A DNA stretch of 64,000 nt, from the NCBI RefSeq assembly GCF_000768315.1, contig NZ_AQQX01000010.1, forward strand, positions 1 to 64,000, given 5' to 3'. The notes under the pieces are model-generated. The model saw only the letters and a list, made by a program, of their open reading frames with translations. It searched no databases and had not been told where the DNA came from. The position numbers and the translations under genes are program-made. This DNA comes from Pseudooceanicola atlanticus (GTDB taxonomy: Bacteria; Pseudomonadota; Alphaproteobacteria; Rhodobacterales; Rhodobacteraceae). Numbering within the stretch: position 1 is the stretch's first letter; each line of letters begins with the position of its first letter. Shown piece by piece: positions 1 through 17,230 of the stretch.

Positions 1-440
1 TTGGCGCAGACTCTACATTAAGGTGAGGGATTTCGCGGGGGGCAGGTCAGCCGAACTTGCCAAACTCTCGTGACACAGCTGACCGAATGTCCGAATGTTT
101 TTCATTTTCCCACAAGTATCTAAGAGGAAGCTCCTGTGGAGACGACAGGCAGTCAAGCGGACATTCTTGGATCGCGCAGGGCCCGTCACTATGGGCTGTG
201 TCGGGCCGTTCGCTGCGCCTAGTGTAGATGGCGGCTATGGGCCGTCCCAGCCAGCCAAACCACCCGCCTGAGCATGCAGCACACCGCGCCGTCGTATGAC
301 CGGTTTGAGCCCTTCAGTGATGGATGTTGCAGTATAGGCGAATGGCTACTGAGGTAATCAGATTGGCGGCCTAACCTGAGCAGTTTCCGCGGGCTCGAAA
401 CCAACTCGCGAGAGCAGGTAGGAATTCGGGACTTGTTTAA
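1..440. other. Left-edge non-coding stretch
   Basis: I see no convincing gene. Short open frames here have no recognisable domain or good start. Around 208-250 there is a degraded motif (cgctgcg, then ggcggct and gggccg) resembling stretches near 1290 and 6960, so it may be decayed repetitive DNA common to Roseobacter islands. The left attachment site of the tRNA-Arg element was not found here. Confidence 0.5.
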
Positions 441-1073
441 TTAGTGTCTACGCTTGCGTTGGTCATTGATGAAGGCACGATACAACTCCCACGCGGCTTC
501 ACCCTCGCCGATCGCGACTTGCTCCAAAATCTGCAACAGGAGCGTGGTTCCTGGCGTGACATTTTGAGGCTCTACTTCTTCGTCGTCTGCCCAATTTTCG
601 TCCACCGCCATCTCGACGTTGATGACCCACCAGCGATCGATCTTAGTTACCAAGTATACAATCTTGGGAAATAGCCTCTCGAATTCTGGCATCTCACCAG
701 TCGAAATCACGCTTCTCAGTTCATGTGCGAAGAAGTTCCGTGCACAAGTTAGCTCTTCGATAATCTTGAGATCATCCGTGTCGATGACTTCCATTTTATC
801 CAGCCAACTAATGGAGCCACGAAGAACATCTTCCTTACCTTTTGGATCCAAGGCCAAGACTTCGCGGCGATACTGATCGCTGAAATGCCAGTCCTTCTTT
901 TCACTCCACTTTTCGGAGAAAAATTCTATGATGGGCTCCTTAATTGAGGCTACAAGCATTTCGTGCGCGACCAAATAGAGTCCGGCCGTCGCAAAGCGCC
1001 TGCGCACGACATCGGGATTGAGGAAGTCTTCCCACTGGCTGTTCATCCGGAATGAATAGCGCCGGGAGGCCAT
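441..1073 (-). CDS. HEPN-domain-like protein (putative RNase), hypothetical
   Basis: A 210-residue, mostly helical, acidic protein that I cannot assign to a named family. The informative feature is R112-N-F-F-A-H117 inside ARNFFAHEL, which fits the R-x4-H signature (R followed by N, then three residues and H) of HEPN-superfamily ribonucleases used in toxin-antitoxin and antiphage systems. No signal peptide or membrane segment is visible. It is transcribed away from the large multi-nuclease gene at 1585, separated by about 510 bases, so the two could form a divergent defence locus; this is inference. There is no clear Shine-Dalgarno before ATG 1073. A TACAAT box lies about 10 bases upstream of the start, so the message may be nearly leaderless. 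Alternative start: ATG at 1046. Lower GC than the core genes suggests transfer. Confidence 0.6.
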   Translation of the reverse strand: MASRRYSFRMNSQWEDFLNPDVVRRRFATAGLYLVAHEMLVASIKEPIIEFFSEKWSEKKDWHFSDQYRREVLALDPKGKEDVLRGSISWLDKMEVIDTDDLKIIEELTCARNFFAHELRSVISTGEMPEFERLFPKIVYLVTKIDRWWVINVEMAVDENWADDEEVEPQNVTPGTTLLLQILEQVAIGEGEAAWELYRAFINDQRKRRH

Positions 1074-1584
1074 CGAAGTCTATATTGTATTGGCGATGGC
1101 CGGCCCCAAATGCTCAGCGAGAGGCCAGCTCTACACGGGAAGGCTGTGTATGAGCCCCTCCGGGGGCGTCCCTGTGCGAAGCAGACGGACCTTCCCCCTT
1201 TCGAGGATTGGCTCAGTCCGCACTGCCGACCTTCGCCTGCCAGATCGTGCTGCACAATGACGCCAATGGCCGGTCTTGGGAAGCTGCGCCGCAGCGAAGC
1301 TGAACCTGGCGAACGGCAGCTCTGGGCCGGGAGCAGACTTGGTCGCAAAGGGCGGAGAGCCGACATTCTTCGCACCTGCAGCATGGTGCAACGAAAGCTC
1401 AAAAGCGAACCTGCATACCGGATCGGTCCCGCGCACGGCCCTGGGAAGCTCGCAGGCTTGAGAGTGGATACTCGCAGTGCAACGCCACAACGTCGACAAG
1501 CTCATACATTGGAGAGATGTGGTTCCGATGTCGAAGGGCCTAAGCTAGGATTTGGATACAGAAAATCAAATAGCCGCGAGCACC
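1074..1584. other. Intergenic stretch with decayed repeat-like sequence
   Basis: There are overlapping open frames on both strands, but none has a recognisable domain. The segment 1287-1335 (gccgcagcgaa, then ggcagctctggg) closely resembles 6963-6985 (gccgcagcgaa, then ggcggctctgg), so this looks like degenerate repeated DNA. It should contain the promoter of the large plus-strand gene. Confidence 0.4.
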
Positions 1585-4500
1585 ATGGTCAACGTCACGA
1601 ATGTAAATCTACTCGCGCCTGCCGACTGGCAGGCCTTCGAGCGGCTGGCTAGGGATCTGTTCGAAAGCGAATGGCAGACAGATGACGTTCGCATGAATGG
1701 TCGTTCGGGCCAGGAGCAACATGGCGTCGATGTTTACGGCACGGACCGGGTTCACAAGAAATGGGTCGGCGTCCAGTGCAAAGGCCGCTCCGGAGGCTAT
1801 GGGAAGGCGCTTAAAGAAAAGGATCTTCGCGAGGAGGTCGAGAAGGCCAAGTTATTTCACCCTCCTCTCGACAGGTTCATCCTCGCCACCACAGCCCCCA
1901 ATGACGCGCGAATACAGGAAGTCGCGCGAGAGCTGAATGAGAAGAACCGAAAGGAGCTTCTCTTCGAAGTCGATGTCATGAGCTGGGACGAGATCAAGGC
2001 TGTTCTCAATCGCCATCCTCGCGTTGCGGCCATTCATTGCTCAGGCGTATCGACGATCGCAGACCTCCAGATATCAGACGCGATGAATGCCCTGCGCAGT
2101 GACGTCTCTAGGGAACTGACGGGGATCTCTTCCGCCGTGCTCGATCTCCAGAGGTCAGCCTCGGCAGCGATAGAAAGAGAACCATCTGATGACGCACTCG
2201 GTCAGCGCATCACCGACGCCGCCGATCTTCTGAATGATAGCCCCGCCCAGTCGGCCATCTCTCGGCTCGAGAAGCTCTTGGAGACCGAAGGCCGCGAAGC
2301 GAGCGCCCGAAACCGCTTCCGCCTCAAGGCCAATCTTGGATCTGCCCATTTTGCAAAGGGTGACAAGGAAGCCACAGTAGATTGGTATCGTCAGGCTCAC
2401 GACGAGTACCCCGATACATCCGAAGCGCTTTCCATACTGGCGGCTGCTGAGTCCATCGCAGGTAATCGTGAGAAGGCGGCTGAACTAGCCTCCCGCGCAA
2501 TGGCAATGCAAGAGCCACAACAGCGGGCCGCTGGAGTATTCTTGGAGACGGCTTCGGCGGAAACACCATGGCAGGAGCTCCAGGCCCAGCTTCCGAAGCA
2601 GTTCCAGCGGGTCCCGGAGTTCCTACTGGCACTCGCGGAGCACGCCCAGAAAGCAGGCCAGCTCACGGATTGCCGGCGGCTGACCAAGGATGCGATCAAT
2701 CGAGACCCCGACAATTGGCGCGTGCGCGCTTACGCAGGATACCTCAGGTTCCAGGAAGTCGCCGAACGGGAAGACATCCGCAGCCTCAGGCTCATGCGGA
2801 AAAGCGACATCGAGATCGTCGAAGATGCGAGAGTACACTTTCTCGTTGCCTGGGGGCTTCTGCAGGCAAGCGGATGGGCGCGAGAGGCTGAAACCTGCAT
2901 CATGAACGCCCTCTCGGCCTCCCTGATGCTTGGGGATGAGGAGAAGGCTGAAGAGCTCATCGAAGAAGCTTTCCGGAGACTTGGAGATACGCCGCAACTG
3001 CTGCGTTTCCGCGCCGCCCATAAGATGCACAAGGGAGAGGATGCTGCGGTTGCCGATGCGCTTTCGAGGATTCCCGAAAGCGATCGGGATCCGAATGACG
3101 AGCTTATGCTACTCCAGGCGCGCATCAATGACGGGGATCCAGAGGCAGCTCTTGCACGTGCCGATTTCCTATATCGAACAGCGGAAGAGGCCAACTTGCG
3201 TGTCGCATTTGGCAACTGTCGTATCCTGGCTGCTGCGCAGATCAATCCTGATCTCTTCAAGGAAGTGGCCCATGACATCCTGAAAGAGCACCCGGACTCC
3301 ACACTGCTATTGGCCTGCTTCGTGTTCAACCATCCTTCTGATATCGACGATCCCGCAGTCATCGATCGCCTTGCCGAGTTGTCAGAGCGAGAGGCCAACA
3401 GCTTCGCGCGTGACCGTGCGGCCCATGCCCTTGCTATGGTGGGCCGGAACTCCGAAGCCGCAGACATCTATCTCGATCTCTGCAGTCCTGACACGGATAC
3501 GCCTCAACTCAGGATGGCACTCCAGACACTGGTGAACTGCCGCAGGATTCGAGAAGCCCGAGAACTGTATGTGAAGCTCGACGCCAGGATCAGAGATACT
3601 GCCAGCATGCGAAGGATCGGCGCTGTCATCTTTCAGAGCGCGGGCAACTTGAAGGGCGCCAGAAAGGAACTCGAGCACGTGTTCGGCACAGGGGATGAAA
3701 CCCTGGAAGACCGCGCTCGCTGGATCGACATCTGCGAGCGTCTGCCGGACATCTCTTCGATCATCCGGTATCTCGACACCGTGCCGGTGGACATTTCCGG
3801 CGATCCCCGAATGCGTATGCACGTTGCGCATAAGCTCGATCACTACACGGACGACTTCCAGAGGGCGCTCGAGAACGGATACCGCGCATTGCGCGACGGA
3901 TATGAAGACCCACAGATACATCTCGGCTTCATGGTCGGGTTGATCCTGACAGGCCGTTCAGGGCGACATGTCGATTTTGACCGCGAGGTCGTTGAGGAAG
4001 ATACGGTCGTAGTGGTCTCGCGAGATCACGCTGATCCGCTCACGAAGATCATCGAGACGGCTCCCGCCCCGCGGGCTGACCGCGACGAAATTTCCACTGA
4101 AGACCCTTTGGCTCTTCGCCTGATGGGAAAGGCTGTGGGTGACAGTTTCCCAATGGATTCCGCTGTCGGGAAGCTGAACGCCACCGTCACAAAGGTCCTG
4201 TCCAAGTATGCCCATGCGTATCATCGGTCTCAGAAGGACTTCGAGCGCCTGTTTCCTGAGAGCAAGATATTCGGAGCGCTTCGGATCGATGAAAATGATC
4301 TGGAAGGCAGTTTTCGTCCCATCCTCGAAAGCGCCAGGGAGCGTGCGGGGCAGGTCAAGCGCATTGAGGAGGCCTACGAATCAGGTAAAGCCCCCATAGC
4401 TCTGTTGGCCGCCGCAGGTGGGGGCACGGTCTTCGATTTTTGGGATTTTCTGCGGCACCACGGCAGCATCAAAATCAAGATGGCCCTTGGTAATGCCGTA

Positions 4501-5541
4501 GAACGGAAGGCTGCAACGCAATCGGTTATGGCCGCGCCCGGAGTGATCGTCGATCCAATCACCCTATACGGCGCCCAGACCCTAGGCTTCGCCGACACCC
4601 TCCTTCAGGCCTGCCCGGACCTGCATATCACCCAGAGCAGCATCGATCTGCTTCACGAAGCCTACCAGGACCGGGTGTATGCCATCGGGGGAAAAGGACG
4701 CCGAGGTAGCCTCGTGGCGGACGAGCACGGCACGCGTACAGTCGAGATGTCCCGAGAGATGTCCGACCTTCTCATATCGAACCTCGGACGAACCCTTGAA
4801 CTTGCACGAGGCCTGAAAATCGCCATGCCGGAAGAAGGCACCGCCCTTCAACCGGACTTCGAAACGGTGTTCGAAGATGTGGGCCCGTGCTTCATAGATA
4901 CGCTGGTAGTCGCCAAGGAGAGAGGGTGGACCTTGCTTGCGGATGACACCGCACTCCGGTTGTTTGCGAGCCTAGACGGTATTTCATCGGCTTGGAGCCA
5001 GGTCGCTCTACAGATCGCTCGCAACAAGCGCAGGATTTCGCAGGAAGCATATTCTGATTCCCTCGGCGCAATGCTGGAGGGGAATTACCGATACGTCAGC
5101 ATCGACGGAGATACGACGGAGTTCGAGTGGGAGCGCAAGGAAACGTCGCTGTGGTTGAAGCGATTTCTCGATCACATCGCCCTGCCGACGAACGACCCCT
5201 GGAGCATTGCTCAACTAATCGGGTCCAGCCTCCTGGAACTCTGGGACGATGCAGACGATGGAGCGCATTGCGTCGCCTATGCCGCCTTCATGCTCGAAGA
5301 GCTCTCATCTCGGTTGGGTGAAGATGGGGCGATCAGGATGTTGGGTGACGCATTAGCCGCCGCAGTTTCGAGGGCGCAGAGAAACGCCCGCATAATCAAA
5401 CTCCCCCAGGTCCTGGCGATGACTACCAGCCTCGCTTCTCCGGCTTATCTGGCCATGGACATAAATCGCGACCATGAAGAAGCCGTCATGAACACAATAG
5501 GTGAATGCTTGAAATCAGCGCGGAAGCTATCCAAGCTGTAA
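1585..5541 (+). CDS. Mrr-like nuclease / TPR / GreAB-C-like / PIN fusion protein (putative defence effector)
   Basis: A single 1318-residue chain. Residues about 10-140 form a PD-(D/E)XK restriction-like fold: E19, then D49 in HGVDVYG, then Q64-C-K66, the Mrr-type E...D...QxK pattern. About 200-780 is helical TPR-like repeats. About 795-890 (REVVEEDTVVVVS, then STEDPLALRLMGKAVGDSF) matches the FKBP-like C-terminal domain of GreA/GreB. About 985-1170 reads as a PIN nuclease with D990 (VIVDPITLYG), D1105 (CFIDTL) and D1120/D1121 (LLADDTALRLF). A TPR-GreAB_C-PIN architecture has been described by comparative genomics as a predicted conflict-system family (recollection, not searched). An added N-terminal DNA-nuclease domain gives two nucleases on one scaffold. 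Inferred job: sensing stalled or foreign transcription and cutting nucleic acid. ATG 1585 was chosen (GAG four bases upstream); TTG 1552 would add 11 residues but has poor spacing. Neighbours: HEPN gene upstream, decayed mobile genes downstream. Confidence 0.75.
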   Translation: MVNVTNVNLLAPADWQAFERLARDLFESEWQTDDVRMNGRSGQEQHGVDVYGTDRVHKKWVGVQCKGRSGGYGKALKEKDLREEVEKAKLFHPPLDRFILATTAPNDARIQEVARELNEKNRKELLFEVDVMSWDEIKAVLNRHPRVAAIHCSGVSTIADLQISDAMNALRSDVSRELTGISSAVLDLQRSASAAIEREPSDDALGQRITDAADLLNDSPAQSAISRLEKLLETEGREASARNRFRLKANLGSAHFAKGDKEATVDWYRQAHDEYPDTSEALSILAAAESIAGNREKAAELASRAMAMQEPQQRAAGVFLETASAETPWQELQAQLPKQFQRVPEFLLALAEHAQKAGQLTDCRRLTKDAINRDPDNWRVRAYAGYLRFQEVAEREDIRSLRLMRKSDIEIVEDARVHFLVAWGLLQASGWAREAETCIMNALSASLMLGDEEKAEELIEEAFRRLGDTPQLLRFRAAHKMHKGEDAAVADALSRIPESDRDPNDELMLLQARINDGDPEAALARADFLYRTAEEANLRVAFGNCRILAAAQINPDLFKEVAHDILKEHPDSTLLLACFVFNHPSDIDDPAVIDRLAELSEREANSFARDRAAHALAMVGRNSEAADIYLDLCSPDTDTPQLRMALQTLVNCRRIREARELYVKLDARIRDTASMRRIGAVIFQSAGNLKGARKELEHVFGTGDETLEDRARWIDICERLPDISSIIRYLDTVPVDISGDPRMRMHVAHKLDHYTDDFQRALENGYRALRDGYEDPQIHLGFMVGLILTGRSGRHVDFDREVVEEDTVVVVSRDHADPLTKIIETAPAPRADRDEISTEDPLALRLMGKAVGDSFPMDSAVGKLNATVTKVLSKYAHAYHRSQKDFERLFPESKIFGALRIDENDLEGSFRPILESARERAGQVKRIEEAYESGKAPIALLAAAGGGTVFDFWDFLRHHGSIKIKMALGNAVERKAATQSVMAAPGVIVDPITLYGAQTLGFADTLLQACPDLHITQSSIDLLHEAYQDRVYAIGGKGRRGSLVADEHGTRTVEMSREMSDLLISNLGRTLELARGLKIAMPEEGTALQPDFETVFEDVGPCFIDTLVVAKERGWTLLADDTALRLFASLDGISSAWSQVALQIARNKRRISQEAYSDSLGAMLEGNYRYVSIDGDTTEFEWERKETSLWLKRFLDHIALPTNDPWSIAQLIGSSLLELWDDADDGAHCVAYAAFMLEELSSRLGEDGAIRMLGDALAAAVSRAQRNARIIKLPQVLAMTTSLASPAYLAMDINRDHEEAVMNTIGECLKSARKLSKL

Positions 5542-5979
5542 TAGCTTGATCTCGAGATTTATGGAGGCGACAAACGTTATCGCTTTCGTTGCCTTCAGAC
5601 GACATAAACGTCTGCTTTCCGCTGCCGCGTTGCAGAAACCGTAGCGGCGCCGGATGTCTGCTTCGGGCCGTCAGTATCGGAAATGGCCTCACGCCGACCC
5701 TTCCGGGCGCCCCAGTACCGCAAGTCCGCTCCGAGCCCGTATTGACCGATGCTGCATCATGCGCGAGTGTCAGCGATGCGCTGATAGCAATCCTTTCAAA
5801 ATCTCCGGTAGCGCCTTTTTCGCCGGGCAAACGTCGCTTTTGTGTCGTTGAACAGCCAAATTTTATGCTGCGATCGTAATTTGCAAAGCACATATTTCTT
5901 GGTGGCAGGTGCGTGGGGATTGGATGAACTCACTCATTGTTTTGGACTTCCACCTTCGGCGCCAAGCCAGAATTGGCTC
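5542..5979. other. Intergenic stretch, no gene seen
   Basis: 438 bases follow the stop of the large fusion gene. Short open frames lack domains and ribosome sites. The text 5600-5760 (gtctgctttccgctgcc, tgcttcgggccg) resembles degenerate non-coding repeats I associate with Roseobacter genomes. No terminator with a clear T-run was found. Confidence 0.4.
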
Positions 5980-6627
5980 TTACTCTTCGGCGGTTTCTAA
6001 AAACATGAAGTTTCCCGGGCTGGCCGCGTCCATTTCCGCCTTAAATTCTTCATCACAGAACCACTCTGACGTGTTCGCATCTCGCCAGACATGCAGATCC
6101 GTCTTGAACCCCCTGACGTTCTTAACCCATTTGTTGCTCTGAGAAGCCGACATGTATTTCTGCGCGCCTGCCAATTTCGGATTTTTCACTTCGATCACCT
6201 CCGACCGGGCGAGGTCTATGGTTTCGGCTGACGCAAATACATTCGCAAGATAGTACGGCTCTGCAATTTCGGCTTCGTCGGCAAGGGACCAAAAGTTCGG
6301 AATCGGGACCAACTCCAAGTCATCACCGACACGCATGCGATAGATATCTGCCAGCTTTTCTCCCACAGCTTGCAGACCGGTGAAATGATGCGGACCATTG
6401 GAATTGAAAAAGTCTGGCAACCAATCATTCCCGAGTCCCGTCAAAGCCCAATGCGTCGCCATCTTTGCCTTCAGGTCGTCTGGCAAAGGCCCAAGCGGGA
6501 AGCCATCGGAGTCAGTTGGATACCAGCGCACAGCCCCTTTCTTAGAACGGCGCTTCTTCTTGTTTTCCGACCAGTCGAACGCGCCTGCCACTGCATCGGG
6601 ATGCACACTAAAGCGATAAACTTCCAT
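5980..6627 (-). CDS. Imm11-like (DUF1629) immunity protein
   Basis: A 215-residue cytoplasmic protein. The second half resembles the Imm11/DUF1629 family of immunity proteins that neutralise polymorphic toxins: EPYYLANVFASAETIDLARS (about residues 122-141), then an alternating strand region with LHVWRDANTSEWFCDEEF, and a terminal block near GNFMFLE. In that family the C-terminal block (a partner residue expected at, or ordered to, the end of the chain) is typical. No intact toxin is found beside it. The short frame 6631-6933 immediately upstream ends 3 bases before this ATG and may be the remnant of a partner gene. Family assignment is by pattern only; it could instead be an uncharacterised phage-island protein. 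Confidence 0.55.
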   Translation of the reverse strand: MEVYRFSVHPDAVAGAFDWSENKKKRRSKKGAVRWYPTDSDGFPLGPLPDDLKAKMATHWALTGLGNDWLPDFFNSNGPHHFTGLQAVGEKLADIYRMRVGDDLELVPIPNFWSLADEAEIAEPYYLANVFASAETIDLARSEVIEVKNPKLAGAQKYMSASQSNKWVKNVRGFKTDLHVWRDANTSEWFCDEEFKAEMDAASPGNFMFLETAEE

Positions 6628-6630
6628 CAG

Positions 6631-6933
6631 TCACCTGTTTAAAGTGTCTAGATGTAGAAGCATTTGCATGTCTTCGCCCAGCCCGACACCCCAAAACGTA
6701 GGGGAGCCCATTGAGTTGTGAAGAACGGCGGCATCTGGTGAGGCAATTGGAGCGAACCGGAAGACTGCCAGCAATTCTCTACACGATGGACGTTGGTAGT
6801 CAGTGCAACCAATTCCTGCTTCCAACCGCACCTTCGTGAATGCTGCGATGCCGCGATAGTAAAGATCATGTTCGTTTTGGGCTCGGAACAGTCGCTGCTT
6901 ATTCGGGTCCAAACGTAAGCTTTTACCGCACAA
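6631..6933 (-). pseudogene. Short frame upstream of the Imm11-like gene, possibly a 5'-truncated gene
   Basis: A 100-residue frame opening with a weak TTG; the frame is closed by TAG a few codons further upstream (about 6954). Its stop overlaps the ribosome-site region of the Imm11-like gene, 3 bases before that ATG, consistent with translational coupling. The C-terminal part (FWGVGLGEDMQMLLHLDT) looks protein-like, but I do not recognise a family. Sequence upstream (6940-7058) is degraded and repeat-like, so this may be the tail of a gene whose 5' part was lost. It may also be chance. Confidence 0.3.
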
Positions 6934-7058
6934 CAGACCTTGGCCTTTGACCCTACCTTGCGGCCGCAGCGAATGGCGGCTCTGGCGGGCCGCGCCGTAG
7001 CATTCCGCTTGTTAGGTGAATGGCAGGAATGGGCCGTCCGCAAAGACGGCCCAAATCT

Positions 7059-7692
7059 TCAGATTTCTACGGCCTCCGCGATCGCCAAGGCGTCTTCTAT
7101 TTCGACCCCTAGGTATCTTACCGTACTGTCCATTTTGGTGTGTCCGAGCAGGAGTTGTACGGCCCGTAGGTCTCCCGTCTTACGATAAATCTGTGCGACC
7201 TTGGTGCGGCGCATCGAGTGGGTGCCATGAGAACTTGGTTCTAGGCCAATAGACGTGACCCCAATCGCGAACAAGGCGCGCGTATTGCCGTGTCGAAATG
7301 TGCAACCGCTCATGAAACCGCCCTGGCCAAAGGTATTCAGATCCGATCATCAAGGGCTCGCCCATCTATCGCAGGAGCGACTTCCGCGTGCCATCGGTAA
7401 CCTCAAAGCGGACAGGTTTCTGTGTCTTACTCTGAGTGATCGAGGCCCGCTCTTTGATCTGTCCTGCAGCGAAAACATCAGCCACCTTCAGTTTGACCAG
7501 ATCGCATCCCCGCAGTTTGCTGTCGATAGCGAGATTGAACAAAGCCGGGTCGCGGTGCTTCTCTGCGATTTCAAGACGGACGCGGATCGCCCAGAGGTGT
7601 TTTGGCAGCAGCGGGCGTTTCTGTCCGACAATGCGGCCCTTGTTCCAAGCAGGACGGCGTGCGCGAATGGCTGGTAAGTTTGGTGTTGGCAT
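7059..7692 (-). pseudogene. Tyrosine recombinase/integrase, inactivated by an in-frame stop and a frameshift
   Basis: The pieces together spell a short (~210 aa) integrase of a type common in alphaproteobacteria. The first part opens at ATG 7692 with SD GGAGGA (RARRPAWNKG, then LFNLAIDSKLRGCDLVKL). A TAG at 7366-7368 sits where Trp is expected. The same frame continues with YLWPGRFHERLHISTRQYAR. At about 7258 one extra G (gattggGgtcacg on minus) shifts the frame. The third part carries GTHSMRRTKVAQIYRKTGDL, the box with catalytic H and R, then LLGHTK and the nucleophile region STVRYLG. Both lesions would prevent a functional product unless they are sequencing errors. It records an older integration event nested in the island. 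Confidence 0.85.
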
Positions 7693-7996
7693 GGCATTTC
7701 CTCCGATCCGCCATACCTCACCCAAGCGCCAACACGACGTTGGCTTGACCACTATATCATACGATGACGCGCCGCTTCCGAAGTCAATTCCGAGCTCAAA
7801 TTGACCGCGGCGACGGAGTTGTCTTTCGCAAGTGCTTCAATCTACTCTCAGTCGAGGTCGGTCCAAAATGGTCATGGGGCGTTTCGCCGGTTGCCATGAT
7901 CTGCCTCGTATTGGACCATGGCGCTTCTTGCCCATAACCATTATTTGCGCCAAGTGCAGCGCACAACCAGTCCCAGCCCGTTGTCGACAGCTTGTC

Positions 7997-8101
7997 GAGT
8001 TAGGCATCTTCAAATACCTCAACGGCTGCTACTATCCGCGACGGCGGCACTCAGCCTTGGGCTGGAAAAGCCCGGTCGCCTTGAAAAGAAATGGGGCCTG
8101 A
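7997..8101 (+). pseudogene. IS3-family transposase C-terminal remnant
   Basis: The plus frame ending at 8101 reads LGIFKYLNGCYYPRRRHSAL followed by GWKSPVA, the characteristic last ~35 residues of the IS3-family OrfB (DDE) transposase (YLN-YNxxRRHSALGYxSP). Nothing of the catalytic domain is visible upstream in any frame. It is therefore a 3' scrap of an insertion sequence. It lies against the truncated 3' end of the terminase gene on the other strand, so IS insertion and deletion probably caused that truncation. The rest of 7693-8169 shows no gene. Confidence 0.75.
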
Positions 8102-8169
8102 ACGAGCACCTGTTGCGACAATTTCACTTGGACAGGTCCACGTCGTACCCGCCAGTGATGTCTTCGGCG

Positions 8170-8589
8170 TCAATGCGCCGCACGGACTAGCTCATGCCGC
8201 TGCTCGGCCGCTTTGTTGCGCTGATAATCCGCCTGGCTTTCCTTGATGATCTGCTCGGCCGTGAGGACCGGGCCCGTCGAGGCCTCGTCTTCATCGTCAT
8301 TCCGAAACATCAGCGACATCTGCGCAGCGGCCCGATCCCCCGCCTCCCGACGATCGGCCAGTTCCGCGTCGCGGTGCATCTTCCAGGCGCAGCATTCCGA
8401 GGGCAGGAATTCGTAGGCCTGCCCGTTCGATCCCTTGGACAGAACCGGCATGCCCTGCTCCAGGTACTTCATGATGATATTCTCCGAAACGCCGTGCGCT
8501 TTCGCGATCGTGCCCCGGTTCATGACCACGTCTTCGACACCCTCCGGCAGAGGACAACGACGCAGCGCTTCCTCCGGATCGAAGCTCAT
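8170..8589 (-). CDS. Phage terminase small subunit (DUF1441/Nu1-like), probably 3'-truncated
   Basis: A 139-residue protein. Residues about 22-70 form a winged-helix-like DNA-binding segment (RGTIAKAHGVSENIIMKYLE, then a charged wing), as in Nu1/DUF1441 terminase small subunits that recognise pac/cos DNA and recruit the large subunit. The following region (TAEQIIKESQADYQRNKAAE) is the coiled-coil linker, which in relatives continues for several dozen residues. Here it stops shortly after HELVRAAH beside an IS3 scrap, so the oligomerisation part is probably missing. No large subunit, portal or capsid gene is in the window, so packaging by this element is not possible from what is seen. Confidence 0.6.
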   Translation of the reverse strand: MSFDPEEALRRCPLPEGVEDVVMNRGTIAKAHGVSENIIMKYLEQGMPVLSKGSNGQAYEFLPSECCAWKMHRDAELADRREAGDRAAAQMSLMFRNDDEDEASTGPVLTAEQIIKESQADYQRNKAAEQRHELVRAAH

Positions 8590-8713
8590 GTATCTTTTCC
8601 TTCCATAACAATAACAACAACCCTTTCAGGTACCCCCAACCCATACCACCCAGCCGCACCCAACGGGGCGCGAATTACCCCCGTGCGGGGCGGAGGGGGG
8701 AAGGACCCAAACC

Positions 8714-9214
8714 CTATCGGGCGGTCTCGATCGCCAGGCGCAGCCGCCGGACGAAGTGATCGTGGAAAACGCCACGGGCCCGACGCATCGGCAGGTCGTG
8801 GAAGTGCCAGCACGCGGTGTAGCTCGCGCTCGGCTCGAACGAGATCAGCATCTTGAGGCCAGAGCCCTTCCGGCCCTTCCGCTCCTAGCCCCCCCCGGGG
8901 GGAGTGCGATGTTGCACGGCCGCGCTTCGAAGTGACGAAGATGTCCGGTTTGGCCTTCAGCCGGGCCAAGGCATCCTTGGGCAGGTTGCCGTAGGCGTTG
9001 CGTCTGGCCTTGACCGGCACGACCAGCGCGGCACCCATCGGACGGCGCACACCACCGCTCACCTGAAGGCGAAGATAGAGCGCGCGCTCGTGTACCGGGT
9101 CGGCCGATCAAAGGCGCGTCCAATGTCCAACTCCTCCAACCGCTTCACGGAGTCTGCAGTGTCGTCGATTGCCATGGTGGTCACAAAGGGAACCGGCTTG
9201 CGGCCCTCTCCGGA
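8714..9214 (-). pseudogene. Phage minor tail protein Z-like gene, frameshifted and 5'-deleted
   Basis: Reading the minus strand and changing frame, the pieces align as one protein: VPFVTTMAIDDTADSVKRLE, then FDRPTRYTSARSIF, then (frameshift near 9065) ALVVPVKARRNAYGNLPKDA and KAKPDIFVTSKRG, then (frameshift near 8920) KMLISFEPSASYTACWHFHD and the final HDHFVRRLRLAIETAR with stop TAG at 8714. PFxTxxAxxDTA followed by FDRPTxxT is the pattern I know from GpZ-like prophage tail proteins. At least two shifts destroy the gene. Its beginning is missing and joined directly to a helix-turn-helix fragment (9215-9313). Confidence 0.6.
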
Positions 9215-9313
9215 CTAGCACCCCTCCAACTTGCCCGAGGACACCAGCTGACTGATCCGACTCTTCGTGACGCCAAGCCGTTCCGCCGATGCCGTCGCGG
9301 TCCGTCCCGCCAT
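9215..9313 (-). pseudogene. Helix-turn-helix fragment (phage-type), truncated by deletion
   Basis: From ATG 9313 the minus strand encodes 32 residues, including ASAERLGVTKSRISQLVSSG and KLEGC, then TAG. This is the N-terminal DNA-binding helix-turn-helix of a phage protein usually much longer; in relatives known to me the text after 'GKL.GC' continues in frame. After the stop the same frame runs straight into the tail-protein remnant, so a deletion joined two unrelated phage genes. Confidence 0.5.
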
Positions 9314-9318
9314 CTGTC

Positions 9319-9375
9319 GTTTAGCCTCTCGCCACTTGTTTAGCCGATTTAGTTTAGGCTTCGCGGATTGTTTAG
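9319..9375. repeat. Four GTTTAG direct repeats
   Basis: GTTTAG occurs at 9319, 9338, 9352 and 9370. The second copy extends to gtttagccgatt (9338-9349), found again exactly at 11724-11735 in the same element. Clustered hexamers upstream of the small helix-turn-helix frame suggest protein-binding sites, but no function can be assigned from sequence. Confidence 0.4.
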
Positions 9376-9449
9376 CGCCGTGCAACACATGCGCTCAGCC
9401 GCACCGTATACGCTGAAGCGTCAGAAGGACCCGCGATCGCCAGGAAATG

Positions 9450-9484
9450 GAAACGCCCGGCAGCGGGTAAACCGCTCCGGGCGC
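9450..9484 (-). terminator. Rho-independent-like terminator of the phage early operon
   Basis: Perfect two-part hairpin: CGCCCGG pairs with CCGGGCG and inside it AGCGG pairs with CCGCT around a GTAAA loop. On the minus strand it is followed by TTTCCATTTCC. It sits about 40 bases beyond the stop of the 9526-10179 gene, so it probably ends the minus operon that starts near 11575. Confidence 0.7.
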
Positions 9485-9525
9485 AATGGGGTCGAGTGCA
9501 CTAAGTCACCGCACCGAGCATCTCG

Positions 9526-10179
9526 TTAGACAATTTCTCTCCACGGCTGGAGAGGCGGCAGCTCGGCCGTCACCTCGTGCGAGGTCAGCCCGCCGTAAAT
9601 CCGGAACGTATCGCGCAGGTCGCGCAGCGCCATGACCCAGAGCATGTAGCTCTTGCGCAATGTGGCGACCTGAGTGCTGTGGCCGTAGTAGACCACCGGA
9701 CAGACCCGCAGCTCTACCCGACGGACGCGGCCGCGACTGAGGTATTTGACTTCGCCACAGGGTTCGGTTTCGGCGAACTCCCCATGCTTGCAGCGCCGCC
9801 AGGCCCGCGGCCGACAGGATAACCGCGTGTCATTGCCCCAGTCATGAGACTGGCCCAGCCGGGCAAGCTCGGCGATCCGCAGGGCCATGGCCCGGCCGCC
9901 GACACCCTCGGGCAGCACCGACAGCGCATCGGCCACCGCATCCGCATCGGGGTGCGGGTCAGACCGTCCGCCGCCATCGACCCGGCAGCCGAGCTCGGCA
10001 CGTTTGAGAATGATGTATTCCATGCCGACATTCGGCGACGGGTCGCGAGCCGTGTTCACCTGGTCGAAGTCCACCGAGGCGAATTCCCGCTGGAAGGCCC
10101 AGCCGATCAGCGCCTCGATCGACACGGCCCGCTTGACCGGCGCCCCACGGCGCAGGCCCGTATCTGCAATCGCATTCAT
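9526..10179 (-). CDS. Phage-associated hypothetical protein
   Basis: A 217-residue protein of a kind seen in rhodobacterial prophage early regions; I know no activity. It has a basic, Arg-rich middle (LSCRPRAWRRCK; RGRVRRVELRV) and cysteines at CRVDGGG, CRPRAWRRC and CGEV, which could indicate nucleic-acid or metal binding; this is speculative. No signal or membrane segment is visible. Its ATG overlaps the stop of the gene at 10176-10766 by four bases (ATGA), so the two are translationally coupled. It is the last gene of the minus operon before the terminator at 9450. Confidence 0.6.
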   Translation of the reverse strand: MNAIADTGLRRGAPVKRAVSIEALIGWAFQREFASVDFDQVNTARDPSPNVGMEYIILKRAELGCRVDGGGRSDPHPDADAVADALSVLPEGVGGRAMALRIAELARLGQSHDWGNDTRLSCRPRAWRRCKHGEFAETEPCGEVKYLSRGRVRRVELRVCPVVYYGHSTQVATLRKSYMLWVMALRDLRDTFRIYGGLTSHEVTAELPPLQPWREIV

Positions 10180-10766
10180 GCGGCATCCTCCTGCCCGGCG
10201 ACGGTCACCAGGTCCAAGGCGGACTGTTCGTCCAGTTCGTAGGCCTCGAGCATGGCGCGCTCATCCGGCTGCAGCGGCACGTTGCGGTAGACACGCTCCC
10301 GGGCCAGCTCGACATCCGAGGCCAGCCGACGCGCATGGGACGTGATCATTGCTGTCTCATGCTCGTTCATCGGTGGACGGTGCTTCGCCTTCCAGAACCG
10401 ATATTCGGCGACCAGGCGGTTCGCCTCCAGGGCCCGTTGCCCGGCAGCGCTGGCAAACCAGCTCGCAAGCCCAGGGAAGTCCTCGATCGGGCGCGGCTGC
10501 GCCGCCTGGGCCAGCGCGATGATCGTCGCCCGCGCCGGCCAGAAACACCGCGCACTCCCTTCGCCCTTGTCCCGAAGGGTCAGGTAGAGCCGATCGAGGT
10601 TGCGATCCTTCAGGTAGGACACATCGTCGATGATCCGCTCGATCCGCTTGCGCTCTTCCTCGATCGGCGTGCCCTTCTTGAACCGGAACCCCAGCCCCTG
10701 CATCGGCGCGATGAACAACCGGCGCACGCGCGCCCGGTTGCTTTCTTCAGTCTGATCTTCGGTCAT
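10176..10766 (-). CDS. Phage-associated hypothetical protein
   Basis: A 196-residue, charged, mostly helical protein without a recognised domain. The N-terminal third (RVRRLFIAPMQGLGFRFKKG, then a KRIERIIDDVSYLKD helix) and the Trp-rich centre (FWPARATIIALAQ, EYRFWKAKHRPP) look like a conserved prophage protein of Rhodobacterales. It is coupled by ATGA to the downstream gene. Upstream lies the TGTCC palindrome cluster (10832-10924), so it may have its own regulated promoter rather than relying on read-through from 11575. Confidence 0.6.
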   Translation of the reverse strand: MTEDQTEESNRARVRRLFIAPMQGLGFRFKKGTPIEEERKRIERIIDDVSYLKDRNLDRLYLTLRDKGEGSARCFWPARATIIALAQAAQPRPIEDFPGLASWFASAAGQRALEANRLVAEYRFWKAKHRPPMNEHETAMITSHARRLASDVELARERVYRNVPLQPDERAMLEAYELDEQSALDLVTVAGQEDAA

Positions 10767-10831
10767 GGCCTGCCCTTTCTCAGCATCTGCTCTGCACGCG
10801 GGCCCGGCCGATCCGTGCGGCCTGGCCCTTT

Positions 10832-10924
10832 CCCTGTCATTTCCCTGTCCCTGTCCCTGTCGTGCGGGACAGAAATTTTCTGTCCGGTTTTGTCCCGTTC
10901 TGTCCCAGGGACAAAACCGGACAG
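10832..10924. promoter_or_regulatory. Nested TGTCC palindromes: candidate operator or iteron origin
   Basis: In 93 bases there are overlapping CCCTGTC repeats at 10832, 10843, 10849 and 10855; a 19-base palindrome GGACAGAAATTTTCTGTCC (10867-10885); and a perfect 17-base inverted repeat, arms at 10880-10896 and 10908-10924 (CTGTCCGGTTTTGTCCC and its complement), whose spacer holds a further TGTCCC-A-GGGACA palindrome (10901-10913). All share the core TGTCC. It lies between the replication-like gene and the next minus gene. It could be a repressor operator or a replication origin with iterons. Confidence 0.65.
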
Positions 10925-10933
10925 TTTATGAGA

Positions 10934-11575
10934 TCAAGTTCGTGGTGGTTTGCCGTGCAGCCGGTGCCCCAGCGTGCGGGCGGTCCAGGCCTGGATCGCG
11001 CGCTCGACCCAGCTGGCCGTGCGGTTGCCGGTGCAACGCTCGACCAACCATTCGTCGATCCACTCGACCGCGGCGTCGTTCTGGCCCAGCTCTTTGTGAT
11101 AGCCCATCATTACCGCCCGCAATCGCTGCAGCCGCTTCTTGCGATTGGCCGCCTCGTTGCGGGCACGGTTGTCTTCCTTCCGCGAGAGCGCCTCCAGCGC
11201 CATCTCCAGAACCACCGGATGATACAGGCGCACCTCATCGAGGCAGCGCACCGGTCTCCAGCCATGCAGCGGACCAAAATCAAGCGCGCAGAGGCGCTTG
11301 AAGTCGGTTTCCGTCAGGTTGAGCTGCTTGGCCAGGATCTCGGTATCGGTCGGCAGGGTGCCAAGCGGGGTTTCATCCTGCGACACGCAGATCAGGTCAA
11401 AATGCAGCGCCCTGCATTCCGGTAAGGCCTTCACACGCATCGGGCTGTGCAGCCAGCGCCGATGCGGCCAGGCGATCCAGGAATGGCTGTCCACCCGATC
11501 CTCCGGACCCAGAGGATACTCCTCCAGCTCGTCGATCGGCACCAGGCCAAGCGCGGTGACACTCATGGCCGCCAC
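10934..11575 (-). CDS. Phage replication-region protein (DUF1376-like)
   Basis: A 213-residue protein whose N-terminal half resembles DUF1376-type phage replication-associated proteins: a Trp-rich opening (HSWIAWPHRRWLHS), then ALHFDLICVSQDETPLGTLP followed by DTEILAKQLNLTETDFKRL, matching the 'few residues, G-x-LP-D-ee-LA' pattern. The second half is a basic helix (RKEDNRARNEAANRKKRLQR), probably nucleic-acid binding. It is the first gene of the minus phage operon. ATG 11575 follows an attenuator-like pair of hairpins, and the gene ends against the TGTCC palindromes, which would suit a replication origin. Function is inferred from family resemblance and context only. Confidence 0.55.
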   Translation of the reverse strand: MAAMSVTALGLVPIDELEEYPLGPEDRVDSHSWIAWPHRRWLHSPMRVKALPECRALHFDLICVSQDETPLGTLPTDTEILAKQLNLTETDFKRLCALDFGPLHGWRPVRCLDEVRLYHPVVLEMALEALSRKEDNRARNEAANRKKRLQRLRAVMMGYHKELGQNDAAVEWIDEWLVERCTGNRTASWVERAIQAWTARTLGHRLHGKPPRT

Positions 11576-11592
11576 GCCTCAGCTGTTCGCCG

Positions 11593-11622
11593 AAAAGGGG
11601 GCGCGAGATCTCCCCGCGCCCC
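11593..11622 (-). terminator. Terminator-like hairpin just upstream of the replication-region gene
   Basis: GGGGCGCG (11598-11605) pairs with CGCGCCCC (11615-11622). On minus it is followed by CTTTT. It lies about 20 bases before ATG 11575, a position suited to attenuation or antitermination control rather than simple termination. Confidence 0.5.
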
Positions 11623-11650
11623 AAGTCCAACAGGGAGGTTGCCCGGATAA

Positions 11651-11712
11651 TCCGCCGGGCGCGGATAAACGGCGGATCGCGAGGAGCTGAATGGGATGTC
11701 TCGCGATCCGCC
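11651..11712. promoter_or_regulatory. 13-base perfect inverted repeat with a competing arm
   Basis: GGCGGATCGCGAG (11671-11683) pairs with CTCGCGATCCGCC (11700-11712) around 16 bases. TCCGCC at 11651-11656 could pair with GGCGGA at 11671-11676 instead, giving mutually exclusive structures. It may be an operator or part of an antitermination leader. Confidence 0.5.
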
Positions 11713-11927
11713 TACGCCCCGGCGTTTAGCCGATTGGGAGGGCGATACTGCGATGCTTTCCGGGCGCTCTTTACAAAGCAACCCACAGTCGAAAAAACGG
11801 CGCGAGACCAGCAGCCCGAGGGACACTGGCGCCTGATCCCGCGCCGAAGTTTGGCCGCGCGATCTTCCCACACGCGGCCCGGCGGTGCGGAGCAGACCCG
11901 CATTCCGTGAGTGATGATTTGAATCGG

Positions 11928-12422
11928 TCATGCCCGGTCCACCCGTTTGAAGGGCGTCGCGCGCAGGGCGGATGGCGCATCCAGCGCGACCAACGCCGCC
12001 TGGGCCGCGGCGACGATATCCAGCAATTCAGCCCGCGCCTCGTGCCGGCATCCGCCCTCGGACACGGCCAGCAGGGCCGAGGTCCCCTCGCCCGCCTCTT
12101 TCACCAGCCGCCCGGCATGCGCCAGCAGCGAAACGGTTTCGCGCGGCGCCGCCTCAGCCACTTCCGGCGCAATCGCCTTGCTGATCCGGTCCGTGCCCGA
12201 CAGAGCCTGCAGGGCGATCGCGTCATTCAGGGTCCACTGGCGGGTGCCGTTCATTTTGCGCGACAGATCGGCAGGGTCGAACTGATCCCCTGCCCCGCCG
12301 GGCCCGGCAAAGAAATCCGCGATCTCCTTGGCCGCGCTCTGTTGCGTCGGGAAATGCGAGGCCACCAGCCCGCGCATCATCGCATGAACCGTCCGGCGCG
12401 CGTCAGGCATCGGCAACCTCAT
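11928..12422 (-). CDS. Phage regulatory protein, CII-like
   Basis: A 164-residue protein of a type found beside the immunity switch of rhodobacterial prophages. Residues about 18-65 look like a small DNA-binding module (ASHFPTQQSAAKEIADFF, then DLSRKMNGTRQWTLNDAIAL), similar to CII-type activators that read a regulatory region as tetramers. The rest (SLLAHAGRLVKEAGEGTSAL, then an Ala-rich helix) would be the oligomerisation part. It lies downstream of the Cro-like gene on the same strand. Its stop is followed by the structured leader 11576-11927. Assignment is by resemblance and position. Confidence 0.5.
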   Translation of the reverse strand: MRLPMPDARRTVHAMMRGLVASHFPTQQSAAKEIADFFAGPGGAGDQFDPADLSRKMNGTRQWTLNDAIALQALSGTDRISKAIAPEVAEAAPRETVSLLAHAGRLVKEAGEGTSALLAVSEGGCRHEARAELLDIVAAAQAALVALDAPSALRATPFKRVDRA

Positions 12423-12518
12423 TGTTTTGCGGCGACCGCGGTAAGCCGTTCAAGTCGAGCGATGAAACAAAGCGCGACGAGAGACGAGATGTACGGAGCT
12501 CTGCATGAAGTTCACCCA

Positions 12519-12779
12519 TCATGCCGCGCTTCGATCTGCGTTTTGCTTACTGGCATCTGCCGCGCCTACGTTCTGGCGAAAAAGGTGTTCGGGAACTTCG
12601 ATGCCGATCTCCGCGCACCAATCACGGCAGCTGAAGAACCAATGAGCGGGAAACTGGTTTTTTGCCAGCGCCCGGGACACGACCTGAGTCGAGTGCCCCA
12701 AATTGCGCTCGAAGTTCGAACGTCCGACGCGGTCAAGAAAGCTGGCTACGGTATCGCGGGTATCGGTCATGGCGCACAT
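12519..12779 (-). CDS. Cro-like phage regulator (small helix-turn-helix protein)
   Basis: An 86-residue protein, divergent from the CI-like repressor. Residues about 12-60 fit a compact helix-turn-helix (VASFLDRVGRSNFERNLGHS, then TQVVSRALAKNQFPAHWF) followed by WCAEIGIEVPEHLF, the usual layout of small prophage Cro/CI-type proteins of this group. The 77-base space to the repressor start carries GCA-N3-TGC operator sites (12786, 12810), so both genes are probably controlled from it. A variant site (tgcgttttgctta) lies inside this gene near 12539. Start could also be the second Met at codon 4. Confidence 0.55.
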   Translation of the reverse strand: MCAMTDTRDTVASFLDRVGRSNFERNLGHSTQVVSRALAKNQFPAHWFFSCRDWCAEIGIEVPEHLFRQNVGAADASKQNADRSAA

Positions 12780-12785
12780 TTCTAC

Positions 12786-12829
12786 GCATTTTGCTTATCA
12801 TGTAAATACGCAAATTGCTCAGTGTGAGC
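12786..12829. promoter_or_regulatory. Divergent operator: GCATTTTGC / GCAAATTGC / GCTCAGTGTGAGC
   Basis: Two 9-base near-palindromes, gcattttgc (12786-12794) and gcaaattgc (12810-12818), centred 24 bases apart and each preceded by tac, plus an overlapping perfect gctca-gtg-tgagc (12817-12829), lie between the Cro-like and CI-like genes. The same GCATTTTGC core recurs at 13298 and 13329, supporting these as binding sites of one repressor. Confidence 0.65.
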
Positions 12830-12856
12830 AACCTATGCTGCGCGGATAATCTCAAC

Positions 12857-13117
12857 ATGTTGGAAGAGCTTGAAGATTCGAGAGAAGCAGTCGGTGCGCG
12901 CCTTAAAAAGGTGCGTGAAATCCTCGGCATGGCTAAGAAAGAATTCGCTGAAAAGGCTGGTATCAGCGAGCAGGTCTACGGTCCGTTCGAAAACGCGAAG
13001 CGCGATCTTTCTCTGCAAAGCGCGAAGAAGCTGCGCAAGGCTTACTCGCTACCCTTAGACTTCTTGTACTTCGGAAAGACCGACGACTTACCGACCAGGA
13101 TCTCTAGAGAACTCTGA
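12857..13117 (+). CDS. XRE-family (CI-like) transcriptional repressor
   Basis: An 86-residue protein that is almost only a lambda-repressor-type helix-turn-helix: VGARLKKVREILGMAKKEFA, then EKAGISEQVYGPFENAKRDL and SLQSAKKLRKAYSLPLDFLY, the five-helix XRE fold with the recognition helix around SEQVYGPFENAK. It lacks the C-terminal LexA-like autocleavage domain of classical CI, so SOS induction by self-cleavage is not expected. ATG 12857 is preferred because it leaves the operator sites upstream; a TTG at 12815 would extend the frame through them. It probably represses the divergent minus phage genes and, through sites at 13298-13337, the plus operon leading to the integrase. Confidence 0.75.
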   Translation: MLEELEDSREAVGARLKKVREILGMAKKEFAEKAGISEQVYGPFENAKRDLSLQSAKKLRKAYSLPLDFLYFGKTDDLPTRISREL

Positions 13118-13297
13118 TCAAGCCCCTCGGTAAATTCTTCCCAAAAATCCAACGACCACCCTGACTGTCTACGCGCCTGTTTTAACAAGCGCAGCCTCGT
13201 TTCGTCGTCCATTCGATTCGCCCCCCATTGCTTGAGGAGACTATTTTGTTCACCTTGCGTTCACAAAGAGACTTTTGAAGCCACTTGGCGTCACTAA

Positions 13298-13337
13298 GCA
13301 TTTTGCTAATTTACAGACTTCCAATTAAGCAAAATGC
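13298..13337. promoter_or_regulatory. Second operator pair: GCATTTTGC and GCAAAATGC
   Basis: gcattttgc at 13298-13306 and its exact complement-symmetric partner gcaaaatgc at 13329-13337 (centres 31 bases apart) lie just upstream of the plus operon beginning at 13359. They repeat the core of the sites at 12786 and 12810, implying control by the same repressor. The 13118-13297 interval shows no gene. Confidence 0.6.
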
Positions 13338-13358
13338 GTACTACAAGCACCTCCACCA

Positions 13359-13652
13359 ATGATGGAGGCCAACATGCACCACCCCTACCATCCCGACGCG
13401 ATCCGGGCGGTCACGACACCCGCTCTTTTCGTTCCCTTCCCGGCCCTGCGCACCGATGCCTGGCTCCGCCTGAAGGAACAACAGGGCCACCCGATCAGCC
13501 GTGACAGGCTGGAACGACTGGATGCCCCGCGTCCAATCTCCGGCTACACGCCGCGGGCCGTGATCGACTTCGTCACCAGGCAGGCGCTGGAGCCAACGCG
13601 CGCAGCGATCCGGGCTCACGGCCTGACCCCGACCGGGGATGACGCCGCATGA
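13359..13652 (+). CDS. Phage-element hypothetical protein
   Basis: A 97-residue protein, His/Pro-rich at its N-terminus, without a domain I recognise (FPALRTDAWLRLKEQQGHPI; YTPRAVIDFVTRQALEPTRA). It is the first gene of the plus-strand operon that runs through the GapR-like gene to the integrase, directly behind the second operator pair. Its stop overlaps the next start (ATGA at 13649). A second in-frame Met at codon 6 is an alternative start. Confidence 0.5.
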   Translation: MMEANMHHPYHPDAIRAVTTPALFVPFPALRTDAWLRLKEQQGHPISRDRLERLDAPRPISGYTPRAVIDFVTRQALEPTRAAIRAHGLTPTGDDAA

Positions 13653-13885
13653 GCGCTCCACTGGCCGACATCGCCCGCCAAGACCGCGAGGACCGGGCAA
13701 GGATCGATGCCCGCGAACGGTTGCGCGGTCGGATTGAGTGCTTCTGCCAGGGCCTCACCCTCCTCGGCTTTGCCCCATCCGTTGATCGCGACCCCGGCGG
13801 CCGGCTCCGCATCACCATCGATGCCGATGCCTGGGAGCCGCCGAACCTCGCACCCCTGGCGCCGCCCCAGTCACAGGACGCCTGA
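13649..13885 (+). CDS. Phage-element hypothetical protein
   Basis: A 78-residue, charged protein (DIARQDREDRARIDARERLR, then a strand-like RLRITIDADAWEPP). Family unknown. It is translationally coupled to the preceding gene by an ATGA overlap and followed 33 bases later by the GapR-like gene, so it belongs to the same operon. Confidence 0.5.
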   Translation: MSAPLADIARQDREDRARIDARERLRGRIECFCQGLTLLGFAPSVDRDPGGRLRITIDADAWEPPNLAPLAPPQSQDA

Positions 13886-13918
13886 CCGCCAGGCGCAACC
13901 ATTCCGAAAGGATCACAC

Positions 13919-14257
13919 ATGCCCCAGGACCTCAGCCCGGCCGCGCAGGCCTTCGTCGAAACCGGCAACGGCGCCGGCGGTTACAAGGAAACACCAGCTG
14001 ACATGGCCGTGCGCGACAAGGCCTACCGCGTGACCGCCGACGAGCTGCGCGGCTTTATCGAGCGCTTCGAACGCCTTGCGGTGGAGAAAGCCGAGATCGG
14101 CGACCAGCAGAAATCCGCCATGGCCGAAGCCAAGGCGCGCGGCTACGACATCAAGGCTCTGCGCCGCATCATCGCCATGCGCAAGAAACACCCCGAGGAC
14201 ATCGCCGAAGAGGAATCCGTGGTCGAACTTTACCGCGAAGTCCTCGGCATGAGCTGA
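13919..14257 (+). CDS. GapR-family (DUF2312) DNA-binding protein
   Basis: A 112-residue protein whose C-terminal 75 residues match the GapR/DUF2312 family: ADELRGFIERFERLAVEKAE, then AEAKARGYDIKALRRIIAMR and EEESVVELYREVLGM. GapR is a small nucleoid-associated protein that clamps overtwisted DNA and stimulates type II topoisomerases. Chromosomal alphaproteobacteria normally carry one copy; phage and plasmid copies also occur. The N-terminal ~35 residues are a variable extension. SD is present upstream (gaaagga). In this element it may help replication or act on the topology of the integrated DNA. It is in an operon with two hypothetical genes before and the integrase after. Confidence 0.85.
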   Translation: MPQDLSPAAQAFVETGNGAGGYKETPADMAVRDKAYRVTADELRGFIERFERLAVEKAEIGDQQKSAMAEAKARGYDIKALRRIIAMRKKHPEDIAEEESVVELYREVLGMS

Positions 14258-14260
14258 CCC

Positions 14261-14452
14261 ATGGGTGCACCTGTTTTCACCGAAGCCGAACTGCGTCGCG
14301 CGATGAAAGTCGCGAACGAATTCGGTGTATCCGTGGAGATCTGCCCGAGGCAGGGTGTCATCAGGCTTGTGAGCGGCGATCGCGCCCCGGTAGCATCGCC
14401 GGAAACCGGGGGTGAATCATGCGACGACATATTCGGGGCGCAGTCAGGTTGA
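14261..14452 (+). CDS. Small phage protein upstream of the integrase
   Basis: A 63-residue protein (FTEAELRRAMKVANEFGVSV, then EICPRQGVIRLV) of a type often found directly before integrases in rhodobacterial elements. A helix followed by two strands could be a small DNA-binding or excisionase-like fold, but no family is confirmed. Its 3' end overlaps the integrase start by 34 bases, implying coupled expression; a role as recombination directionality factor is inference only. Confidence 0.5.
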   Translation: MGAPVFTEAELRRAMKVANEFGVSVEICPRQGVIRLVSGDRAPVASPETGGESCDDIFGAQSG

Positions 14453-15516: not shown

Positions 15517-15538
15517 CTGCAAGGCGCATTGGGGGAAG

Positions 15539-15615
15539 TGGCGGACCGAGGAGGATTCGAACCCCCGACCCCCTGATTCGTAGTCAGGTACTCTATCCAG
15601 CTGAGCTATCGGTCC
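15539..15615 (-). tRNA. tRNA-Arg (anticodon ACG)
   Basis: On minus the sequence folds as a complete cloverleaf: acceptor GGACCGA pairs with TCGGTCC, D-arm GCTC, anticodon stem CCTGA/TCAGG with loop containing ACG, T-arm with TTCGAAT, discriminator G and encoded CCA (15539-15541). Anticodon ACG reads CGU/CGC/CGA after A34 deamination to inosine. Its intact 3' half faces the integrase, so this is the attachment site and the element restores the gene's 3' end. I did not find a second copy of the 3' end within the window, so the far att site is probably left of it. Confidence 0.95.
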
Positions 15616-15799
15616 GTGTGGGCTGCGTTTAACGACGGGCCGGGATGAGTTCAAGCGGAAAATTCAAACTTTCTGCAGGAGGTTCGGGTGACGCGGGGCA
15701 AGCGGTCATCCGATGGCGGCCCGGCCTTCGTAAACACGGAGCAGTCGTGCCTGCCACGTGACGAGACGCTCCTTACAACCCATTGCCACGCAATAATAT

Positions 15800-17209: not shown

Positions 17210-17230
17210 GGTCGGGTCCGATACGGGCGG

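Follow-up and report, generated by a model that had tools for sequence, protein, structure and literature searches.

The window analysed here, nucleotides 1 to 64,000 of Pseudooceanicola atlanticus contig NZ_AQQX01000010.1, carries near its start a gene whose 1318-residue product is probably a defence protein of the TPR-GreA/B-C-PIN type, with an Mrr-like restriction endonuclease (REase) domain as its N-terminal effector. The open reading frame (ORF; 1585–5541, + strand) is intact and has a single match in the genome. In their passages on this system, Kaur et al. (2021, eLife; PMC8195603) describe a core of tetratricopeptide repeats (TPR), GreA/B C-terminal domain and PIN nuclease that is joined to 13 alternative N-terminal effectors, REase among them, and is encoded by mostly stand-alone genes. 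They propose that the protein engages RNA polymerase (RNAP) and cuts transcripts, with the N-terminal effector as a back-up. We judge it likely that the gene of the window moves horizontally and that its product acts by itself in defence (biological conflict), joining two nucleases to a TPR/Gre-like sensor. The gene is laid out as follows.

1585–5541, + strand: whole gene, with REase, TPR, GreA/B-C, PIN and a helical C-terminus in that order, 1318 residues
1606–2034, + strand: Mrr-like PD-(D/E)XK nuclease domain, residues 8–150, with E19, D49 and Q64-C-K66 (Mrr_cat 22.8 bits on the segment, residue conservation, helix and strand order of the model)
2047–2169, + strand: helical linker, residues 155–195, low confidence (model pLDDT below 50)
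2176–3966, + strand: TPR superhelix, residues about 198–794, the least conserved of four compared parts
3967–4224, + strand: GreA/GreB C-terminal (FKBP-like) domain, residues 795–880; Ser837 corresponds to E. coli GreA S121 and Asp840 to S124
4300–4455, + strand: helical segment, residues 906–957
4465–5019, + strand: PIN domain and flanks, residues 961–1145, with D990, D1021, D1105 and D1120/D1121 (PF20698 at 988–1128)
5020–5538, + strand: helical C-terminal part, residues 1146–1318

Domains and active sites of the protein

In a Pfam scan of the whole protein, PF20698, the PIN domain of the TPR-GreAB-C-PIN system, matches residues 988–1128 with E = 6.9e-16, and a structure search also gives a PIN fold. 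The canonical PIN site consists of four acidic residues. In the window protein D990, D1105 and D1120/D1121 are present, and the place of the second acid is taken by Leu1022, with Asp1021 adjoining. Three PIN acids are each conserved in more than 95% of ungapped sequences. The helical segment upstream of the PIN domain resembles HTH_upst_double_PIN weakly at residues 913–953 (15.7 bits; cut-off, 27). The model has a beta-hairpin and a helix within the PIN region (residues 1040–1075, window 4702–4809), and the structural matches include chains of minimal protein-only RNase P.

The N-terminal segment, scanned alone, reaches 22.8 bits with Mrr_cat, for which the cut-off is 21, and Mrr_cat matches 7 of 12 family segments at E ≤ 0.01. 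The arrangement E...D...(Q/E)xK on an alpha-beta core is seen in the residues, the secondary structure of the model and the profile, and E19, D49, Q64 and K66 are nearly invariant across the family. A sequence-profile search of the Protein Data Bank (PDB) with the REase domain gave no meaningful match.

The GreA/B-C fold is supported by a fold match as well as by profile: searched against the PDB, a profile made from 23 Gre-like segments brings up GreB, GreA and Gfh1, with E = 4e-5 at best. The window protein thus has the C-terminal domain fold of GreA, GreB, Gfh1 and Rnk, but differs from them in two ways: the Pfam scan shows nothing that matches the N-terminal coiled coil of Gre, and most family members carry Asp or His in the loop where Ser would precede Pro. 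PADLOC, run on the whole protein, has PDC-M58A as its sole match (E = 0.023).

The preliminary description, made from the letters of the window and a list of ORFs, had read the gene as a fusion of an Mrr-like nuclease, TPR, a GreAB-C-like block and PIN. Profiles and fold bear out these domain calls, and the residues that it named stand where it placed them. The kinship that it drew to predicted TPR-GreAB_C-PIN conflict proteins is likewise supported.

The two nucleases across the family

Three word-based searches, all with REase-bearing queries, gave 181 proteins, the window protein included; one query alone (residues 800–1150 of its protein) left the N-terminus out, and the best 120 of its 142 matches were listed. 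Domains were assigned with home-made REase, Gre and PIN profiles, built from rows that include the window protein, its relatives and L028–L038, which match by construction. REase, Gre and PIN occur together in 149 of the 181 proteins. Gre and PIN occur in the absence of a REase match in 12, 11 of which are only 748–1145 residues long, and REase with Gre in 3.

Both active sites are intact in 130 of the 139 three-domain proteins that could be scored (10 of the 149 could not). The altered sites in the other nine affect PIN alone in six, REase alone in two and both in one. In 98-row structure alignments, which comprise the window fragment and 97 of the 147 listed full-length proteins, the REase and PIN distances co-vary with a Spearman coefficient of 0.897, compared with a maximum of 0.155 in 200 shuffles. 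Therefore, the fusion looks old. Of the four compared parts, conservation is highest in REase (median pairwise identity, 0.45) and lowest in TPR (0.22).

PF20698 is found in 3 of 385 genomes of the class and in 14 of 398 genomes of the phylum, the genome of the window included in each case. A REase N-terminus is present on nine of the ten above-cut-off PF20698 matches in the 398 genomes, that of the window included. Proteins with two nucleases are the rule in this sample. The preliminary description suggested that the added DNA-nuclease domain gives a combination not described before; this part of it does not stand, because REase is usual in the phylum sample and is already listed as an effector in PMC8195603, which rules out a novel fusion. 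The archetype given in the passages of that paper has an EAD10 N-terminus and the window protein has an Mrr-like REase, which is no difference in kind; core, domain order, exchangeable effector and mostly stand-alone genes are alike. Neither the residues of the Gre loop nor the joint diversification of REase and PIN is mentioned in its section on TPR-GreA/B-C-PIN.

A REase domain with no match to the home-made Gre or PIN profiles was found in 17 of the collected proteins, one of which, P0172, bears PF20698 in its database annotation. Across P0162–P0179, the same REase domain heads proteins annotated in the database with NTPase, WD40 or TPR parts. P0174, also among the 17, matches Avs4 (E = 5e-12) and, at residues 15–135, LmuA (E = 4e-5). 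Therefore, the REase nuclease also serves elsewhere in immunity. In P0174, an Avs-type STAND protein, the homologous REase stands ahead of a large sensor, as in the window protein. Avs proteins contain a STAND NTPase; in contrast, the Pfam scan of the 1318-residue protein shows no NTPase family at E ≤ 1.

The PF24407/PF20698 double-PIN proteins (L028, L029 and L039–L041) likewise combine an N-terminal effector with a PF20698-type PIN domain. Their N-termini are REase in L028 and L029, bDLD3 in L039 and a phosphorylase in L041; L040 is known from the alignment alone. They differ from the window protein in that the Gre motif is unaligned and in their length, which is 1411 to 2069 residues.

Genomic setting and mobility

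The gene has a patchy distribution. A match to the protein is present in 7 of 194 genomes, its own included, and is full-length in 4; of the partial matches, two lie in the TPR range only and one covers residues 871–1200 only. Within the genus, it is present in 3 of 22 Pseudooceanicola genomes, one of the three being only 45% identical. Relatives of about 91% identity are found in Heliomarina, Pseudooceanicola pacificus and Maritimibacter, and one of 83% in Citreimonas.

Homology of the window DNA is limited to 1577–5534 with the Heliomarina and P. pacificus loci (L008, L010) and to 1348–5673 with the Maritimibacter locus (L011). Between the window and these three loci, sharing stops at the gene with short flanks, as for a mostly stand-alone gene. 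As the DNA homology extends little beyond it, the gene appears to be transferred as a small unit. The Heliomarina and P. pacificus loci have in common a stretch of 13.5 kb (about 6116–19653) that is 97.5% identical, and its presence in two genera is probably the result of recent transfer.

Neighbours were scanned at 20 predicted ORFs by Pfam (3 of them in the window) and at 10 by PADLOC. Within 10 kb, the stretch common to L008 and L010 has an integrase, AbiJ, RelE, an exonuclease and an MmeI-type enzyme; L011 has Drt8 (DRT8); the P. batsensis locus (L042) has an integrase, IS21 and a CBASS cyclase; and the Citreimonas locus (L009) has a type I modification/specificity protein and MqsA. AbiJ, DRT8, CBASS or restriction genes thus lie near the gene in all four other close-relative places.

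In the window itself, the gene sits close to the beginning of the contig, in DNA of lower GC content (0.562 over 1–8100, compared with 0.644 past the tRNA). Two features, in an arrangement typical of island boundaries, may mark the end of an island.

14419–15516, + strand: tyrosine integrase (PF00589, E = 4.3e-8) beside tRNA-Arg, the likely end of an island that would hold the gene
15539–15615, − strand: tRNA-Arg (acg), a possible integration site

A search for att repeats around the tRNA-Arg, covering the largest 20 of 50 listed repeat families, gave weak pairs and nothing decisive. An Imm11-family immunity protein (PF07791; 28.0 bits, cut-off 22.1) is encoded directly downstream of the gene, at 5980–6627 on the − strand. 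On the same strand, 7059–7313 and 7366–7752 resemble by eye a broken tyrosine recombinase, the second piece having no Pfam match, and the product of 8170–8589 resembles a phage Nu1-like small terminase protein, slightly short of the cut-off (27.9 bits, cut-off 30), and may be a prophage remnant.

A plasmid origin was rejected, as no plasmid DNA matched, and so was a phage origin, as phage records gave only a 31% match to residues 2–143 in one Salmonella record. None of 28 pattern matches was confirmed as a viral contig encoding the protein, and the C-terminal model had no viral fold match at E ≤ 0.001.

RNA polymerase docking, mechanism and alternatives

The model of Kaur et al. would have the Gre-like domain grip the beta-prime coiled coil of a hijacked RNAP, whose transcript would be driven into the secondary channel for cleavage by PIN; REase would be the fall-back death effector. 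The true GreA/B-C fold and the published reasoning (passages of PMC8195603) speak for it, and the loop residues bear on it in both directions. Ser837 aligns with E. coli GreA S121 (numbered from the PDB alignment), a column that is Ser in 119 of 164 sequences, and substitution S121P in GreA loses RNAP binding, as the relevant passages of PMC7527559 report. Asp840, which precedes Pro841, aligns with E. coli GreA S124 and with S127 of MtbGre, the latter placed by translating a printed primer (YSPNEPLGG). At this position the window protein lacks the Ser of the host GreA loop (KSPIARALIGK), and the family column is mostly His (H 132, D 20, N 5 and S 4 of 164). An acidic change at the same place in MtbGre, S127E, abolished activity and RNAP binding (passages of PMC3132773), which argues against docking, as does the want of a Gre coiled coil among the Pfam matches. 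On the other side, GreA S124L is reported to retain RNAP binding (PMC7527559). The primary GreA of the genus has Ser-Pro in 21 of 21 cases. Other residues precede the Pro in its second Gre-like protein (Thr in 7 of 8 loci) and in Rnk-like proteins (Ala or Thr in 9 of 10 loci), one locus in each set giving no call, and this too speaks for docking; RNAP binding by Rnk rests on the title of PDB entry 3bmb.

The residue evidence for docking, as read from the loop sequences, and for the sensing through the RNAP secondary channel that the preliminary description put forward, is therefore mixed, and we have withdrawn the loop as an argument against docking, the match to S121 being kept and the S124 site tolerating Leu for binding. 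Because Ser837 is kept and S124L binds, our estimate for docking rises from unlikely to a serious possibility, and we hold the model of Kaur et al. to be such a possibility, somewhat short of an even chance.

For the mechanism of the defence protein, we envisage that the TPR superhelix and the Gre-like domain recognise an infection-linked target, a role suggested by the TPR being the fastest-changing part. Recognition would alter the shape of the protein or its multimer state. The linker that carries the REase has low model confidence and is probably flexible, and two REase copies might therefore pair and become active. PIN, with its fold and acidic residues in place, would cut RNA near the recognised complex, which might be a hijacked RNAP as proposed in 2021, and REase, with its E-D-QxK residues and profile match, would cut DNA with or after PIN. 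The outcome would be destruction of phage DNA, or abortive infection. That the protein attacks DNA as well as RNA, as the preliminary description inferred, is plausible because both active sites are kept together.

The two nucleases may be coupled, with the Gre-like domain docking on a phage-altered or non-canonical transcription complex, PIN destroying the transcript and REase the template under joint selection; we put this forward only tentatively. Alternatively, one nuclease could be the effector and the other a nucleic-acid sensor or regulator, PIN for example binding an RNA trigger and REase killing. The nine scorable relatives with altered sites and the absence of the second PIN acid in the group of the window protein fit this division of labour, whereas the conservation of the three PIN acids points to metal-dependent cutting; on balance we regard it as rather unlikely.

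Several observations weigh against a two-nuclease defence protein of this type. Mrr_cat and GreA_GreB fall under their Pfam cut-offs in the whole protein, as do the TPR matches. The 50 listed rows of a fold search with a 1200-residue model are repeat proteins, TPR foremost, and say nothing on nucleases. At the position of the canonical second PIN acid, 112 of 160 relatives carry Glu and 20, the window protein among them, carry Leu. None of nine scanned genes of its own island matches a defence family (nine by Pfam, six by PADLOC), though Imm11 and the integrase are there. Among open PMC papers, we found no experiment on any family member, in agreement with the preliminary description on this point. 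In favour of a defence role, TPR-GreA/B-PIN is named among anti-phage systems in a passage of PMC9503650; the passages of the DefensePredictor paper (PMC13092281) on two PIN systems validated by catalytic mutants give no link to TPR-GreA/B-C-PIN.

The last opposing observation concerns the more distant loci, of which neighbours were viewed at seven, with 10 ORFs scanned. Four (L030, L032, L034 and L036) are flanked by housekeeping-looking genes, a call made partly by eye, scans among the four covering L034 and L036; the others have TIR and AAA_13 (L031), a recombinase and DUF3800 (L037) or an AAA ATPase (L035). The preliminary description would have been undone by missing profile matches, lost catalytic residues and housekeeping loci. 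In the close relatives none of these is seen, and it is the housekeeping-like setting of four distant loci that goes against it. Such loci would suit a housekeeping factor in RNA or DNA repair or quality control. The patchy presence, the inter-genus homology confined to the gene and the integrases and defence genes near close relatives all argue otherwise, making such a factor very improbable.

TPR-GreA/B-C-PIN is a predicted immune system for which the open PMC literature yielded no experiment. Our survey indicates that its active sites are kept together and that, in its Gre-like loop, one residue of importance for RNAP binding is retained and another altered. With conserved paired active sites and mixed loop residues, the model published in 2021 is now directly testable, with regard to both the partner of the Gre-like domain and the need for both nucleases.

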